Positions 11,743 to 23,729 of a stretch of DNA of 64,000 nt are shown here, piece after piece. This stretch comes from Candidatus Limnocylindrales bacterium (GTDB lineage: Bacteria > Moduliflexota > Moduliflexia > Moduliflexales > JAUQPW01): contig DATMBG010000021.1 of assembly GCA_035559535.1 (NCBI GenBank), positions 1 to 64,000 of the forward strand. The letters are read 5' to 3'. Numbering within the stretch: the first letter of the stretch is position 1; the number at the start of each line of letters is the position of its first letter. A program made the translations under genes and the position numbers. A model generated the notes under the pieces. The model ran no database searches. It was not told the origin of the DNA and saw only the letters and a list, made by a program, of their open reading frames with translations.

Positions 11743-13299
11743 TTATTTTTGACTTAATCCGCTTCCTTTCCAGCTTCTTAGGAACTCAACCAGCAACCGT
11801 ACTCCAAAACCGGTTCCTCCTTCAGGAATATAAGGTTTCTCTTCAAAATTGCGGGCCACATTGGCAATATCCAGGTGAACCCAGGGAAAACCTTCGGCAA
11901 AATAGCTCAGGAAAGCTCCCCCCATAATCGTACCGGCTCCTACATCTTCGGTAATATTTTTTAGATCGGCTATCTTACTCTTGGCCAATTCCCTGTAATC
12001 CTCCCATAAAGGAAGTTCCCAAACCCGTTCACCGGAAGTTTCTCCGGCCTGACGGATCTTATCCAGAAGAGATTTATCATTTCCCATCATAGCGGCTGCA
12101 ACCCGACCGAGGGTAATGGCGCAGGCACCGGTAAGAGTTGCCAGATCAATAACGGCCTGGGGATTGTATCTTTTAGCATAGGCCAGGACGTCCGCGAGGA
12201 TCAACCGACCCTCCGCATCGGTATCTAGAATTTCGATGGTGATCCCGGAGAGGGAAGTAACGACATCACCGGGTTTTGTGGCTTTACCACTGGGGAGGTT
12301 CTCGGCAGCTCCTATCAATCCCACTACGTGAAGGGGGAGATCCAGCAGCGCTATAGCCTGCAGGGTACCTAACACAACCGCGGCTCCGGACATATCGGTC
12401 TTCATCTGGTACATCCCCTTTGAGGGTTTCAGAGAAATTCCCCCACTATCAAAGGTTACACCCTTACCGGCTAAAACTATGGTACCCAAAGCCGAACTAC
12501 CCTCTGGTTCTTTGCCGATTGCTGCTTGCTTCGGATCGTGTTCCAGAATTACAAATCGGGGAGGCTCTTCGCTTCCCTTTGCAACGGCTAACAAAGCTCC
12601 CATTTTAAGATCTGAGATCTCTTTTTCCGTCAGGATCTGACATCTTAAACGGCAGGTTTCGGCCATCCGCCTGGCCTGATGGGCCAGCTCCGAGGGAGTC
12701 AGGATATTCGCCGGCGTATTAATCAAGTCCCGAGCAAAGTTAACGGCTCCTGAGATAATCCGGGCCGTACGAATTTCCTCTTCTACTTCTGCTAACCTTT
12801 GCTCATCGGTGCAGATAAGGATCATGCGATCTATCTCCCTGGCATCCTCTTCTTTCTTAGACTTATAGGGATCAAATTTATAGAGTCCCAGTAACGTTCC
12901 TTCAACCAAAGCCTGGGCTTCTCTGGGATTACCTGTTCCGGGAAGCAGAGTCGCAAAACTGGTAAATCCCTTCCTTGAAATTTCTTTTGCAGCCTTACCT
13001 GCCGCACGACGGAGGGTTTCCAGATTAAATTCCTCTTTTTTTCCAAGCCCTACAAGCAGAACGGCTTTTGCAGTGAGAGTCGGATCGGTTCCCTGTTTGC
13101 TTAAATAAATCAGTTGGGTTTCCAGGACCTTTCCTTTGAAGTTGTTTCCTTGCAAGACCCGATGGATCATCCCCTGGAGGGATTGATCCAGGGACTTGAC
13201 AGGTTCTGTGAGATCTTTCGTTTTCTCAAAAAAATTCAAAACGAGGACGTCCACAGACTCCTCGTGGATCTTTCCTGTTCTGGCCAGAATCTGTTTCAT
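11743..13299 (-). CDS. pepA: Leucyl aminopeptidase (M17 family)
   Basis: A cytosol-type leucyl aminopeptidase (about 518 residues) that releases N-terminal amino acids from peptides using two metal ions. Metal-binding and catalytic segments are all visible: GKGVTFDSGGISLKP, MKTDMSGAAVV and the DTDAEGRLILADVL signature. The N-terminal macro-like domain is present, as in full-length family members. I chose the ATG at 13299 because its ATGA overlaps the stop of the preceding short ORF; a TTG at 13320 is the other option. It ends a run of three overlapping minus-strand frames and is followed by a good terminator. Confidence 0.93.
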   Translation of the reverse strand: MKQILARTGKIHEESVDVLVLNFFEKTKDLTEPVKSLDQSLQGMIHRVLQGNNFKGKVLETQLIYLSKQGTDPTLTAKAVLLVGLGKKEEFNLETLRRAAGKAAKEISRKGFTSFATLLPGTGNPREAQALVEGTLLGLYKFDPYKSKKEEDAREIDRMILICTDEQRLAEVEEEIRTARIISGAVNFARDLINTPANILTPSELAHQARRMAETCRLRCQILTEKEISDLKMGALLAVAKGSEEPPRFVILEHDPKQAAIGKEPEGSSALGTIVLAGKGVTFDSGGISLKPSKGMYQMKTDMSGAAVVLGTLQAIALLDLPLHVVGLIGAAENLPSGKATKPGDVVTSLSGITIEILDTDAEGRLILADVLAYAKRYNPQAVIDLATLTGACAITLGRVAAAMMGNDKSLLDKIRQAGETSGERVWELPLWEDYRELAKSKIADLKNITEDVGAGTIMGGAFLSYFAEGFPWVHLDIANVARNFEEKPYIPEGGTGFGVRLLVEFLRSWKGSGLSQK

Positions 13300-13592
13300 A
13301 TTTCTACTAAAATCTTCCAAATGGTTGGATTGAAGAGGACAAGATTTGCCTGTGATTGGGTTTCTGTCTTTACATAATCCAGCATTTCCCAGATCCGATC
13401 TTCGGTAGGCGGAACTACCGGAAGCCCATCGGTCCAGCCTTTCTGGAAATAAAACTCAATAGCTTCTAGAGAATCCTTCACTTCAAACCTTCGGGATAGC
13501 AATTCTCTGCTGGCATTTAGCTCAAAAATCAAAGAGGTAGAAGGTAAAAGCCATAAAGCAGCGGCCGTTAGGCAGGTTTGTATAGACTTCAA
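13296..13592 (-). pseudogene. Fragment of a WTDGLPVVPPT-family protein
   Basis: A 98-codon frame. Its middle, from about residue 37 (VKDSLEAIEFYFQKGWTDG, then LPVVPPTEDRIWEML), matches the N-terminus of a much longer conserved family of unknown function that I know from soil and marine bacteria. After about residue 70 the similarity stops, so most of the usual protein is missing. The start would be TTG, overlapping the stop of the thioesterase gene, and its TGA overlaps the ATG of pepA (ATGA). It is either a decayed remnant kept inside an operon or a very short derived gene. The first 35 residues look like random or signal-like hydrophobic sequence. Confidence 0.55.
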
Positions 13593-13957
13593 TCTCCCAT
13601 AATAGGCGTCGGTCGACCGTTTTCATCGACCGCCACGTAAATAACTTCAGCCTCCGTTACCCTAACCTTGGATTTATGACTCGTTCCACGTTCTGCTTCG
13701 ACTATAACGTGGACCGTTAAAGAGGTGCGCCCTACCCGAATGACCTGGGCATAAAAACTTACCAGATCTCCCACATATACAGGGGCCACAAACTCTACTT
13801 CCCGCATGGCCTTGGTAACAAACCTTTTAGGAGCGTATTTATGGGCCTCTATCCCCCCGGCCAGGTCAATATAGCTCAAAATAACCCCACCAAAAATAGT
13901 CCCAAACCCGTTGGTATCCCGGGGGAGCATCATCACGCGAATAGCTGGCTCTTGCAC
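13589..13957 (-). CDS. Acyl-CoA thioesterase (hotdog, YciA-like)
   Basis: A 122-residue single hotdog-fold thioesterase that hydrolyses acyl-CoA to free acid and CoA. The family core is present: [24 protein letters not shown], in which the Asn/Asp and Gly-rich helix form the active site, then the strand [17 protein letters not shown]. The annotated start is GTG without a good ribosome-binding site. The first MET-LEU-PRO lies only eight residues in, so the real start is uncertain. The product is cytosolic. It leads a tight group with the fragment at 13296 and pepA, which looks like chance co-transcription more than one pathway. Confidence 0.85.
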
Positions 13958-15608: not shown

Positions 15609-17687
15609 TTATTCTAAAGATAGCCAGGGGACCTGAAAAGTTCCAGGAATTTCAATAATAGTTGTAAAATTCGAATATAGAGCCTCTTTAAGGGCAGATT
15701 TTAGTTCTGAAGGATCCTTTAATCGAATTCCTCGCGCCCCAAAAGCTTCTGCAAACTTTACAAAATCAGGGGTATAGAGATCTACCTCAAAGCTACGACC
15801 ATATCGAATTTCTTGAAAACCCTTGAGAACCCCATAGCTTCTGTCGTTAAAAATTAGTATGGGAATATTTAGCTGATATTTGACTGCTGTAGCCAGTTCC
15901 TGGCAAGTAAACATAAACCCCCCATCTCCACAAAGGGCTATAACCTGTCGGTCAGGATAGGCCACTTTAGCTCCAATTGCAGCAGGTAAGCCAAACCCCA
16001 AGGTGGTAGAACCATAAGGATATAAGAACGTCCGTGGCCGACGTACTTTAAAATACCGCCCAGTCCAGTAAGTCATAATGGTCATATCATTGGCCACAAT
16101 GGCATCTGGCTCTAAAACCTCTTGGAGATCCCAAACTATCTGGAGTTCTTTTTCCCGACGGCCCGACTTGAGAAGCCCTTCAATTTCCTTTTTCAACTCA
16201 GTCACCGTATTTTGTACTTCTTCCCATTCAGAGACTCGAGATAGATTTTTTTCTTTTAGTTCCTTCAAGATTTCTGCCAAAACTTGTCTGGCATCCCCCA
16301 CAATACCTACCTCGACCGGATAGTTTTTTCCGATCTCTTTCTCATCCAGGTCAATCTGGATCCTTCGCACCGGTAAAGGTAACCGCCAATTATCGGTGGT
16401 CGCTTCACCCAGTTTTGTCCCAATGATCATTAAACAATCGACTTTAGATAGAAATTTCTGTACGAAGGGACTCTTCACCGGATTTCCTCTATAGATAAGG
16501 AGTCCATTTATACAACCCAGGGCCAGAGGGTGATCTTCGGGGAGGATTCCCTTTCCCTGAAAGGTTGTTATAACCGGAGCACTCAACCGTTCTGCAAGCT
16601 CACGGATTTCTAACTCAGCCCCTGATCGAATCGTTCCACCGCCGGCTAAAATTAAAGGATTTCTAACTTGATGTAAGATGTCTATCGCCTCTTTAATCTT
16701 TTGGGGATCACCGGATCTCCTCGTCCACGGAACCTTCTCCGGGATAGTTATCTGACCTTCGCTACTTAGAATATCTGTGGGAATTTCGATCTGTACCGGC
16801 CCGGGTCTCTGGGTTTTTAATTTTTTGAAGGCTTCCCGGATCACGGAAGGGATTTCCTCCACTGACTTCACGCGATGATTCCATCGGGTAACCGATTTAA
16901 ACAGATTATAATGATCTTTAACTTCATGAACCCCTCCTTTTCCGCTATCCACCAACTTAGAATGAATTTGTGCCATGAGAATTAAGACCGGAGAAGAGCT
17001 CGCGTAGGCTTCCATAGCCGGGGTAATGACATTACCTCCCCCTGGACCCGGGGTTATTAAACAAACGCCCGGTTTTCCGGTTACCCTTGCATAGGCATCG
17101 GCCATAAATCCGGCTCCCTGTTCGTGCATAGTCTGAATGTGACGGATCTCGGGGTAATCTATCAACACATCATAAAGAGGTAGTGCATGAACTCCAGGAA
17201 TCCCAAAAATAACTTCGGTCCCCTCTGCCTTCAGGGTTTGAATAACTGCCTCTGCTCCCTTCATCCGATAGGATTTCCCTGACAGGCTATCTGTTGGTTG
17301 TTCCGGTTTTGCTTTGGCTGCAAACCTCTTTTTATCGATAATCGCCCGTTCATGGAATCCTTCCCCGATTTTTTCCCTTTCGTTATAGGCTTCTACTTCG
17401 AACATACAGCGTCTATCACGGATCTCGATCAACCGGGATCTGGCCGTAACCTTCATTCCTATCGGGGTTGGTCTCAGGTGTCTGATATTCACGGCTGTTC
17501 CCACAGAACTTTCTCCTTGATCTAAATAGGGCTCTAAGAGCTTCCTGGAGGTATCTTCCATGAGTCTGATCATGGAAGGAGTCGAGAAAACCGAGGGATA
17601 CTCGGGACCTAAGTACGTGATTCCCTCTTCAGGTGCTACGGTAATCGTCTGTTCAAAACTTAATCCAACTTTAAGTCCTTCTTTCAT
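15609..17687 (-). CDS. Fusion: FlK-like hotdog thioesterase + TPP-dependent enzyme (acetolactate synthase-like)
   Basis: A 692-residue protein with two parts. Residues 1-130 form a hotdog domain of the fluoroacetyl-CoA thioesterase (FlK)-like group, with FSTPSMIRLMEDTS (Thr and Glu positions) and NIRHLRPTPIG (His position). From about residue 140 follows a complete TPP enzyme of the acetolactate synthase/benzoylformate decarboxylase fold. It has the activating Glu in MHEQGAGFMADAYARVTG, the central domain, and the TPP/Mg motif GDGGFMFTCQELATAVKY ending in IFND. No regulatory subunit gene is adjacent, so biosynthetic acetolactate synthase is doubtful. A decarboxylase or carboligase acting on a CoA-ester-related substrate is a reasonable inference. 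No frameshift occurs at the junction. Confidence 0.85.
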   Translation of the reverse strand: MKEGLKVGLSFEQTITVAPEEGITYLGPEYPSVFSTPSMIRLMEDTSRKLLEPYLDQGESSVGTAVNIRHLRPTPIGMKVTARSRLIEIRDRRCMFEVEAYNEREKIGEGFHERAIIDKKRFAAKAKPEQPTDSLSGKSYRMKGAEAVIQTLKAEGTEVIFGIPGVHALPLYDVLIDYPEIRHIQTMHEQGAGFMADAYARVTGKPGVCLITPGPGGGNVITPAMEAYASSSPVLILMAQIHSKLVDSGKGGVHEVKDHYNLFKSVTRWNHRVKSVEEIPSVIREAFKKLKTQRPGPVQIEIPTDILSSEGQITIPEKVPWTRRSGDPQKIKEAIDILHQVRNPLILAGGGTIRSGAELEIRELAERLSAPVITTFQGKGILPEDHPLALGCINGLLIYRGNPVKSPFVQKFLSKVDCLMIIGTKLGEATTDNWRLPLPVRRIQIDLDEKEIGKNYPVEVGIVGDARQVLAEILKELKEKNLSRVSEWEEVQNTVTELKKEIEGLLKSGRREKELQIVWDLQEVLEPDAIVANDMTIMTYWTGRYFKVRRPRTFLYPYGSTTLGFGLPAAIGAKVAYPDRQVIALCGDGGFMFTCQELATAVKYQLNIPILIFNDRSYGVLKGFQEIRYGRSFEVDLYTPDFVKFAEAFGARGIRLKDPSELKSALKEALYSNFTTIIEIPGTFQVPWLSLE

Positions 17688-18951: not shown

Positions 18952-19281
18952 TTATCGGAGAGGATGTCCTGCTCCACCTGTGCCGGAAGCCTGTCCCCCG
19001 CCCATTGCTTTACCGGTGCCGGTAGCACTCCCTTTGCCAATAGCAATTCCCCTACCAGAAACGGTGCCGGTTCCTTTTTTAGCACGGACTTTACCGTGAT
19101 TACCTCGATAGATAACCATTCCGGTACCGCTGGCACTACCTGTACCCAGGGTTGTACCACCACCATGAATACTGCCGGTTCCCCGAACTCCGCCTCTTCC
19201 ACTCACTTCACCGGCCATAACCGGAACAGAGAATATAGCCAACAAAACTACCATACATATGGCTATAAGCATTCTTTTCAT
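18952..19281 (-). CDS. Small secreted Gly/Thr-rich repeat protein (paralog A)
   Basis: A 109-residue protein that I do not recognise. A signal peptide (VVLLAIFSVPVMA, likely cleavage before GEV) is followed by a mature part built of short GTG-type units (GTGS, GTGM, GKGS, GTGK). The core GTGMVIYRGN, then KVRAKKGTGTVSGRGIAIGKG, is shared with the protein at 19721, so the two are paralogs. GGAGG precedes the ATG by 6 bases. A second frame on the same strand (18924-19202) is open but is only a shifted shadow of this repetitive sequence. Likely periplasmic or extracellular, with function unknown. Confidence 0.7.
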   Translation of the reverse strand: MKRMLIAICMVVLLAIFSVPVMAGEVSGRGGVRGTGSIHGGGTTLGTGSASGTGMVIYRGNHGKVRAKKGTGTVSGRGIAIGKGSATGTGKAMGGGQASGTGGAGHPLR

Positions 19282-19720: not shown

Positions 19721-20173
19721 TTATTGCTTAGTATTGCTCGTTGATCCAGTATTTCCGGTTTCTGTAGTTGTTCCGGTATCGGTACCTGTATGGGAGTCAC
19801 CATGATGTCTGGGATTACCGGCTGTACCCGTCCCCGTGGCAGCCCCTTTACCTGCTGCAGTACCCTTACCGGAAGTAGTACCTTTACCTATGGCAACGCC
19901 TTGACCAGAAACACTTCCTTTTCCCTTCTTAGCATGAACCGTAGTTTTCTTCTTACCTTTTCGAGTCCGTTTCTTACTTTTGTAAACTACGACGCCGGTC
20001 CCCGTGGCACCTCCAGTCCCCTTGGTTATTCCCGTACCTTCGGTGGTACCTGTACCCTTCGCACCGCCGGTTCCGGTTACTGTATTTCCGGTTTCCGTAT
20101 TCTGAGCTATACCAGGAACAGAAGACGCAGCCATTAGGGCTGCCATGGATATTGCAATCACGGTTTTCTTCAT
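19721..20173 (-). CDS. Small secreted Gly/Thr-rich repeat protein (paralog B)
   Basis: A 150-residue protein with a signal peptide (AISMAALMAASSVPGIAQ) and a mature part made of short G-T-G, G-K-G and T-G-T units. The core GTGVVVYKSKK, a lysine-rich stretch and HAKKGKGSVSGQGVAIGKG correspond position for position to paralog A (18952). Paralog B adds a basic insert (KKRTRKGKKK) and a longer Thr/Gly/Asp-rich C-terminus with a HHGDSHTGTDTGT patch. It has its own strong AAGGAGG ribosome-binding site. Repetition of this kind suggests an extracellular or surface-associated polymer-like protein. No function is known to me. Confidence 0.7.
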   Translation of the reverse strand: MKKTVIAISMAALMAASSVPGIAQNTETGNTVTGTGGAKGTGTTEGTGITKGTGGATGTGVVVYKSKKRTRKGKKKTTVHAKKGKGSVSGQGVAIGKGTTSGKGTAAGKGAATGTGTAGNPRHHGDSHTGTDTGTTTETGNTGSTSNTKQ

Positions 20174-21438: not shown

Positions 21439-23649
21439 TTAGATCGGTTCTGAAGGCTCAATCCACTTTCCATGGGCTTTAATAAGCTCGATCAACTTTT
21501 CGTCGGCAACTTCTTCGGGTATGTTTCGGGCCACCCGTTCTTTCCCGACATAGAGATCTACCCGCCTGGGGCCTGATCCAACATATCCAAAATCGGCATC
21601 AGCCATCTCACCTGGACCATTAACAATACATCCCATGATGGCGATTTTAACCCCTTTAAGGTGGGACATCTTAGACTTAATACGTTGGGTGGTAGTTTGG
21701 AGATCGAACTGGGTGCGACCGCAAGATGGGCAGGATATAAAATCGGTTCGAGATATTCGCAATCGGGTAGCCTGAAGCAAATTATAACTCACTTCAAGGG
21801 CTTCGAGAGGATCATCGTATCCGGCTATCTGGATGGCATCGCCGATTCCATCGCATAGCAGAGAACCCAATATCACCGAAGCCTCCAGGAGAGGATCTTC
21901 AGTTTCAGGAGTCGGACTATACCTTAAAAGGAGGGGAACGTCCATTCCCGAAAAATCCAATTTATCAACAAGCTTACGGTAGGCAAAGATCATTTGAGAG
22001 GTTTTCAGAGAGATAAGAACATTCTCATAATTCTGATCCAGACCCAGTCCAACAAGCTGATAGCACGTCTCTACAAGACCTTCGAGGGTTTTTCCATGGG
22101 TCTTTAAGATAAACTCAGGAATCTGGGCTTCATCAACATCCCATTGAATCGTCCTCTGATACGTCTTGGCCAACTGGATATACGGTAGAATCCGAGATTT
22201 CCAATCTGAGCTGGATCCTTCTGGATCAGGACTCAGGTTGATTTTATCAACCTCTGGAAGAATACGACAGATAGGATCCGGATCTATCAGATGAGGAGAA
22301 ATTTTAAGGGCCAGAGGGACTCGACCCGAAACCATGGGCCCGGTTTCCGATTGAATAAGGGGAAGGGATAAGGACCTGGAACCCTGAAGGTTTCTTCGAA
22401 TTTCTGTTACATAATCTATTTCTATGTCCTTTTCCAGGGAAAGCTGAATAATCTCAGAAGGTGGACAGTTTTTGGACTTCGGATTTAGAAGTCGGTCCAT
22501 TTGCTGTAAGGTAGCTTCTACATCTGAAATCGGCGTTGTAACGGCAATTTCTACCCGGATCGGATGGGTATTTCCGAGTTTAAGACCGTTTAAATCCAGT
22601 TCCCGGGTTTTACGACGGGAGTAAGTGTAAGGATTTCGTAGGGAAGCAGGCATAGGGGAAAGTAGGGGTTTGGGAGAAGAGAGAACAATGGGCGTCCTGG
22701 CCTCTCTATCTTTATGGTCTTCTTCCTCCATCTTTCCGTACTTCCTTACTTTCTCGAGCAAATCATTATACTTCTTAACCAAAGCATAGGCCACAGGAAT
22801 TTCTGCAACCGGATCTTCCGTTAAAGAGACGCGAATGGTATCTCCGATCCCATCTTCCAACAGGGAACCGATTCCAACGGCGGATTTCATACGTCCATCC
22901 ACCCCATCCCCGGCCTCCGTCACACCCAGATGAAAAGGATAATCCATTCCCAATTCAGCCATCCTGGCAGCCAACAACCGATAAGCCTGGATCATAATCA
23001 GAGGATTGGAAGCTTTCATGGATAGAACCAGATCCCGGTATCCATATTTTTCACAGATTCGTACAAATTCCAGAGCAGATTCTACCATGCCCTCCGGAGT
23101 ATCCCCATAGCGGTTCATGATCCGATCTGAAAGGGAACCATGATTGGTTCCGATCCTCATGGCAACTCCATATTGTTTAGCTTTTAAAACTAAGGGTTTA
23201 AATTGGGTCTCTAACCGTTCCAATTCCCGGGCGTATTCGCTATCGCTGTATTCTTTTTGCTCAAAGTGTTTCCGATCTGCATAATTTCCCGGATTAATTC
23301 GAACCTTCTCCACATACTCTACAGCTTTTAAGGCAGCATTCGGGGTAAAATGGATATCTGCTACCAGCGGAACTTTAATACCCCGCTCTCGTAAAGCGGC
23401 TTTAATATTTTTCAGGTTTTCAGCATCGGCCAGAGAAGGCACCGTTACCCGGACGATTTCACAGCCGGCTTCCACCAATCGGATGATTTGATCCACCGTG
23501 GCAATGGTATCCTTTGTATCCGTGGTAGTCATGGACTGAACCCGAATAGGATAATTTCCCCCAAGGGGAACATCCCCCACATAAACAACTCTTGTTTTTC
23601 GGCGATAATAGGTATAAGGGTCTTGACAATAAGGTAAGATGTTAATCAT
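21439..23649 (-). CDS. ispG: 4-hydroxy-3-methylbut-2-en-1-yl diphosphate synthase, large form
   Basis: IspG/GcpE, the penultimate enzyme of the MEP isoprenoid pathway, using a [4Fe-4S] cluster. At about 736 residues it is the large form with a central insert, as in Chlamydiae, Bacteroidetes and plants; proteobacterial IspG is about 370 residues. Domain A starts with TRVVYVGDVPLGG and IRVQSMTTTDT. The cluster-binding C-terminal domain has SCPSCGRTQFD and IAIMGCIVNGPGEMADADFGYVG. The insert begins near residue 340 with NPYTYSRRKTR, echoing the protein's own N-terminal DPYTYYRRKTR. I chose the ATG at 23649 over a TTG at 23691. Confidence 0.95.
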   Translation of the reverse strand: MINILPYCQDPYTYYRRKTRVVYVGDVPLGGNYPIRVQSMTTTDTKDTIATVDQIIRLVEAGCEIVRVTVPSLADAENLKNIKAALRERGIKVPLVADIHFTPNAALKAVEYVEKVRINPGNYADRKHFEQKEYSDSEYARELERLETQFKPLVLKAKQYGVAMRIGTNHGSLSDRIMNRYGDTPEGMVESALEFVRICEKYGYRDLVLSMKASNPLIMIQAYRLLAARMAELGMDYPFHLGVTEAGDGVDGRMKSAVGIGSLLEDGIGDTIRVSLTEDPVAEIPVAYALVKKYNDLLEKVRKYGKMEEEDHKDREARTPIVLSSPKPLLSPMPASLRNPYTYSRRKTRELDLNGLKLGNTHPIRVEIAVTTPISDVEATLQQMDRLLNPKSKNCPPSEIIQLSLEKDIEIDYVTEIRRNLQGSRSLSLPLIQSETGPMVSGRVPLALKISPHLIDPDPICRILPEVDKINLSPDPEGSSSDWKSRILPYIQLAKTYQRTIQWDVDEAQIPEFILKTHGKTLEGLVETCYQLVGLGLDQNYENVLISLKTSQMIFAYRKLVDKLDFSGMDVPLLLRYSPTPETEDPLLEASVILGSLLCDGIGDAIQIAGYDDPLEALEVSYNLLQATRLRISRTDFISCPSCGRTQFDLQTTTQRIKSKMSHLKGVKIAIMGCIVNGPGEMADADFGYVGSGPRRVDLYVGKERVARNIPEEVADEKLIELIKAHGKWIEPSEPI

Positions 23650-23729
23650 AGAAACGAGAATCAGGATCAGCCTCCAGGAACCGGAATTCAAAACATTCTG
23701 ATCCCTGAGCCCTTATCTTTAGATCACCT

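Follow-up and report, generated by a model that had tools for sequence, protein, structure and literature searches.

In the stretch of DNA analysed here (the window, 64,000 nucleotides of contig DATMBG010000021.1 from Candidatus Limnocylindrales bacterium), the reverse strand carries between positions 15609 and 17687 a single open reading frame with an ATG start and no internal stops. The encoded protein of 692 aa combines an FlK-type hotdog thioesterase with a thiamine diphosphate (TPP)-dependent enzyme. All Pfam domains of this protein score far over the cut-off: FlK (PF22636) at residues 28-119 (E 6e-35), TPP_enzyme_N at 142-258 (4e-36), TPP_enzyme_M at 331-472 (3e-36) and TPP_enzyme_C at 536-680 (9e-45). 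The features discussed below are as follows.

15609..17687 (-): fused gene for an FlK-type hotdog thioesterase and a TPP-dependent enzyme (open frame, Pfam domains, kept in the sister species)
17322..17687 (-): FlK-type hotdog domain, residues 1-122 (PF22636, E 6e-35; phmmer match to 3kv7; pLDDT mostly 87-97)
17580..17582 (-): Thr36, equivalent to the catalytic Thr42 of FlK (3kv7 alignment; invariant in 26 FlK-family domains)
17556..17558 (-): Glu44, equivalent to the catalytic Glu50 of FlK (same evidence)
17478..17480 (-): His70, equivalent to the catalytic His76 of FlK (same evidence)
17265..17321 (-): linker, residues 123-141 (pLDDT <50 for 124-140; dN/dS 0.28; one in-frame codon indel between species)
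15609..17264 (-): TPP enzyme with N, M and C domains, residues 142-692 plus stop (PF02776, PF00205, PF02775; Foldseek)
17121..17123 (-): Glu189, TPP-activating glutamate in MHEQGA (alignment with IlvI, IlvB, PoxB and Oxc)
15846..15929 (-): GDG-X24-N Mg2+/TPP-binding motif, residues 587-614, with GDG at 587-589 and Asn614 (same alignment)

Integrity of the fused frame

The same fused frame, here of 691 aa, is present in a sister species (G001; L022:8001-10076 in record JAUQPW010000009.1), which is the sole other genome of the genus in our collection and was assembled independently of the window. The two proteins are 95% identical (TPP half 95%, FlK half 98%), and the only indel in the linker comprises one whole codon, so that the reading frame is kept through it. 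According to the Nei-Gojobori method, dN/dS between the window and L022 is 0.043 for the FlK half (18 synonymous and 3 non-synonymous changes), 0.28 for the linker and 0.084 for the TPP half; thus, strong purifying selection acts on both halves and relaxed selection on the linker, in keeping with a real two-domain protein. The probability that a frameshift or a misassembly joined two separate genes is virtually nil: we found no point in favor of such an artefact, and the frame shared by two separately assembled species, the 3-nt in-frame indel in the linker and the low dN/dS on both sides of it rule out this explanation, together with chance read-through. The sequence-only reading, which placed an FlK-like domain and a complete acetolactate synthase (ALS)-type enzyme in one continuous frame, is therefore borne out by the open reading frame, the Pfam domains, the sister species and the dN/dS values. 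It had also named what would speak against the fusion, namely homologs with the two domains as separate neighbors and a stop or frameshift between them; such neighbors do exist in one other genome (L025, see below), but in the window the two domains are joined without an intervening stop or frameshift.

The AlphaFold2 model (mean pLDDT 82.9, pTM 0.69) consists of a confident FlK fold, a low-confidence segment at residues 124-140 and a TPP fold, and the linker of about 19 residues is predicted to be disordered. The linker ends at Met142, with which the TPP half begins, and this residue aligns with the starts of stand-alone TPP relatives; hence, end-to-end joining of two genes is the simplest origin of the fusion. 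Met142 could also permit separate translation of the TPP half by internal initiation, which counts against the interpretation of the fusion as a bifunctional enzyme that we favor below.

Characteristics of the two halves

The FlK half scores 119.9 bits against PF22636 (cut-off 27) and covers positions 11-102 of the 103 in the profile. In a phmmer comparison it matches the fluoroacetyl-CoA thioesterase FlK of Streptomyces cattleya (3kv7 in the PDB) with E 7.5e-22 over residues 1-123; this full-length alignment, beginning at residue 1, supports the chosen start codon. Across the 26 FlK-family domains aligned, T36, E44 and H70 are invariant, as are G63 and R114. T42, E50 and H76 are the catalytic residues of FlK, with roles established in other family members, and the lid segment with Phe33 and Phe36 confers the discrimination of fluoroacetyl. 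Unlike 3kv7, the window protein has a gap at the six residues that carry the lid phenylalanines, and it is C-terminally fused to a TPP enzyme. FlK-family thioesterases are common in bacteria, and their substrates are mostly unestablished. On the basis of the conserved residues, we predict that the FlK half, which lacks the fluoroacetyl-specific lid, can act as a thioesterase. Thus, the earlier designation "FlK-like" holds for the wider FlK family, with its catalytic residues kept, but the absence of the lid segment means that a specialized, fluoroacetyl-CoA-like substrate is not indicated.

The TPP half is a complete three-domain enzyme (residues 142-681) that exhibits the hallmarks of its superfamily, i.e. 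the N, M and C domains, the catalytic Glu and the GDG-X(24-27)-N motif, and Foldseek aligns it with structures of acetohydroxyacid synthase (AHAS), alpha-hydroxy-beta-keto acid (AHKA) synthase and ALS at E values of about 1e-46 to 1e-42. However, it falls below the cut-off of every NCBIfam family among the best 25 matches listed, of which PRK08266 (NF006122) is the highest-scoring (461.2 bits vs a cut-off of 571), and it reaches 439.7 bits against the TIGR00118 family of biosynthetic AHAS, for which the equivalog cut-off is 538.35. The second-substrate site of AHAS includes Arg (R276 in AHAS II), Trp (W464) and Gln (Q110). In the alignment all three are kept in E. coli IlvI and in the ALS of the same genome as the window, whereas in the TPP half Gln is replaced by His254, Arg by Lys425 and Trp by Phe624. 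The tree, which includes IlvI, IlvB, Gcl, Oxc and PoxB of E. coli, assigns the window protein to a ten-member clade that contains no characterized reference and is separated from AHAS and Gcl (99/99). The AHAS large subunit (IlvB/IlvI) shares with the TPP half the three-domain fold, the catalytic Glu, the GDG-N motif and about 30% sequence identity, but differs in its specificity positions, in its clade and in its partnership with a small subunit.

The genome does encode a normal ALS elsewhere: the large subunit (L003, C36:51546-53159) scores 843 bits against TIGR00118, and the only ALS_ss_C match in the genome (C36:53618) lies directly behind it; no small-subunit gene was found beside the fusion. 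The presence of this separate ALS, the scores below the cut-offs and the separate clade indicate that the fusion is not a biosynthetic ALS, in agreement with the initial view of its layout, and these sequence comparisons place the TPP half outside AHAS. The uncharacterized PRK08266-type enzymes, for instance the paralog L002 from the same genome, form a sister clade in the tree, but they share only about 40% identity with the TPP half and are unfused. Among the structures in the PDB, the AHKA synthase BbmA is the top sequence match (281.7 bits), followed closely by E. coli AHAS I (276.6 bits), and both also lead the fold search. The margin of about 5 bits is too small to assign the window protein to the BbmA type: identity to the AHKA synthases BbmA and CsmA (8x3x, 8x3z) is about 30%, barely above that to AHAS, CsmA scores far lower, and neither of these enzymes has a thioesterase domain. 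Membership in the OXC/HACL group was rejected because of lower scores in the PDB search (about 199 bits or less, compared to 282).

Other TPP enzymes of this genome include a glyoxylate carboligase and further paralogs. L002 lies downstream of an AMP-binding CoA ligase of the phenylacetate-CoA-ligase type, and at another locus (L133, G000:C37:155000-170000) genes for RidA, a PRK06154 TPP enzyme, a class-III aminotransferase and a branched-chain amino-acid ABC transporter stand in a row that is likely an uncharacterized amino-acid catabolic cluster.

Distribution of the fusion and relatives of its halves

Among the genomes and relatives screened, only the two species of this genus carry the FlK-TPP fusion. 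The architecture of FlK proteins was examined in about 680 genomes and in the 80 top FlK relatives, and a search for close full-length homologs covered additional genomes. No FlK-TPP fusion was found among the 80 top FlK loci; in the phylum to which G061 belongs (297 genomes), none of the 108 FlK hits lies in a frame of at least 600 aa; and the fusion was found neither in a set of 385 genomes covering many families, which was searched for full-length matches at E<=1e-115 and separately by inspection of the frame around each FlK hit, nor in the plasmid collection. The 396 genomes of the Acidobacteria phylum yielded no full-length match at E<=1e-130, which is a weak negative. At these two E-value thresholds, a fusion might be missed if its TPP half were more distantly related; however, in the 297-genome and many-family sets the frame around every FlK hit was inspected, so that a fusion there would have become apparent. 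FlK domains are common and nearly always stand-alone, most of them in frames of about 120-220 aa. Several longer frames were rejected as fusions: the 567-aa frame with FlK in G394 is a spurious low-complexity extension, those in G294, G264 and G189 look like non-coding upstream frames, and the 650-aa frame in G1089 has an N-terminal extension without FlK. The search for the same pairing proposed in the sequence-only reading thus recovered the sister species and, in the genomes and relatives screened, nothing outside the genus. We conclude that the fusion is probably genus-specific; the phylum of the window is represented by four genomes in the collection.

The closest relative of the TPP half found, and its nearest neighbor in the tree (100/99), is a stand-alone enzyme from Candidatus Tectomicrobia (G034/G062) with about 51-52% identity (52% over 437 aa, as the contig breaks off within the gene). 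Only six bases separate its 3' end from that of an opposite-strand gene (L025:7628-8536), in which an FlK domain 60% identical to that of the window is fused to a RidA (YjgF) domain. We estimate that, with roughly 3,000 genes per genome, such an adjacency would arise by chance with a probability of the order of 0.1%, or about 1% when the small number of genomes inspected is taken into account. This locus resembles the window in combining a close FlK domain with the nearest stand-alone TPP relative, but there the fusion partner of FlK is RidA, and since the two genes are convergent on opposite strands, they form no operon. In a second Tectomicrobia genome, an FlK gene (L031, 48%) lies beside a RidA gene and the TPP gene is located elsewhere, and in G051/G065, G061 and G060 both relatives are present on different contigs. 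The adjacency independently links the FlK and TPP families and argues for a bifunctional enzyme, whereas the convergent orientation and the genomes with unlinked relatives argue against it. The neighborhoods of RidA, TPP and FlK genes in Tectomicrobia and at L133 hint at a shared amino-acid or 2-oxo-acid context.

These data bear on the possibility that the loss of a stop codon simply joined two neighboring genes, whose products both work, but in unrelated reactions, so that the fusion would have no metabolic meaning beyond co-expression. Such an accident would account for the linker ending exactly at Met142, as in simple end-to-end joining, and for the restriction of the fusion to one genus among the genomes screened. 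On the other hand, the nearest TPP relative and a near FlK relative are also neighbors in a distant phylum, and the fusion has persisted through a synonymous divergence of about 0.3 per site between the window and L022; we therefore regard an accidental join as rather unlikely.

Another alternative is that the FlK domain is non-catalytic and serves as a module for CoA-thioester sensing or oligomerization, by which the TPP enzyme is regulated or scaffolded, in analogy to the ACT small subunit that regulates AHAS. The lack of a small-subunit gene beside the fusion is consistent with this scenario, as is the situation in Tectomicrobia, where the FlK domain is joined to unrelated enzymes, i.e. to RidA in L025 and, in the same genome, to an enoyl-reductase-like short-chain dehydrogenase/reductase (SDR) in an in-frame FlK-SDR protein (L020:1192-2688), the SDR part of which may have its own start codon. 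Nonetheless, none of the catalytic positions of the family has been lost, each of them is invariant, and purifying selection is stronger on the FlK half than on the TPP half; we consider a non-catalytic role unlikely.

Possible function of the fusion

We are inclined, with somewhat better than even confidence, to regard the gene as a genuine genus-specific fusion encoding a bifunctional enzyme, in which both halves are catalytic and most likely act in one catabolic or clean-up pathway. From sequence we infer the activity of both domains, their common pathway and the direction of flow. The FlK-family domain would most likely hydrolyze a small or activated acyl-CoA by means of its Thr-Glu-His residues, and the TPP half would most likely decarboxylate a 2-oxo acid and pass the resulting hydroxyalkyl- or acyl-TPP carbanion to a proton or, in carboligation, to a carbonyl acceptor. 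The thioesterase might either free the acid used by the TPP enzyme or clear an acyl-CoA side product. The coupling of the two activities on one acyl-CoA or 2-oxo acid, as suggested in the sequence-only reading, is plausible, with their shared chemistry being our inference, and the fusion most likely points to an uncharacterized two-step reaction in a non-AHAS pathway of 2-oxo acids. The nearest genes in the window (for a zinc-ribbon-like protein, a WD40 protein and a YciA-like thioesterase) indicate no pathway, which counts against the proposed bifunctional enzyme.

It is tempting to consider a more specific scenario, in which the FlK-family thioesterase feeds or proofreads a BbmA/CybE-like TPP carboligase in an undescribed pathway of this poorly sampled phylum. 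AHKA synthase-type enzymes (CqsB3/NzsH, CybE) condense two 2-oxo acids (PMC7466098, PMC12395478); in the scenario considered here, the hotdog domain would release a 2-oxo acid or clear a dead-end acyl-CoA, and the TPP domain would at once decarboxylate and couple the 2-oxo acid. We consider this carboligase scenario improbable. Returning to the bifunctional enzyme in general, FlK-TPP is a new combination of two known enzyme families, for which the literature searched provided no shared pathway; a search for FlK with acetolactate synthase or for thioesterase-ALS fusions retrieved nothing relevant. The fusion is thus a "Rosetta stone" hint that FlK-family thioesterases can serve 2-oxo-acid/TPP chemistry, and because both halves reside on a single polypeptide, the hypothesis is directly testable in vitro.

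The surroundings of the fusion exhibit several further features. A second hotdog thioesterase (4HBT, YciA-like) is encoded on the same strand at 13589-13957(-), about 1.7 kb downstream of the fusion, and the order of these two genes is the same in L022. Compared with L022, the window lacks a segment of about 1.5 kb (within L022:12327-13853) that contains a 351-aa ORF without a Pfam match and another ORF of 104 aa; a chimeric 98-aa ORF (13296-13592(-)) is left in its place. Two adjacent small ORFs at 18952-19281 and 19721-20173 (both on the reverse strand) have signal-peptide-like starts and dense Gly-Thr-Gly repeats, and the gene at 21439-23691(-) encodes an IspG-like protein of the long form (about 740-750 aa), with an extra central domain.
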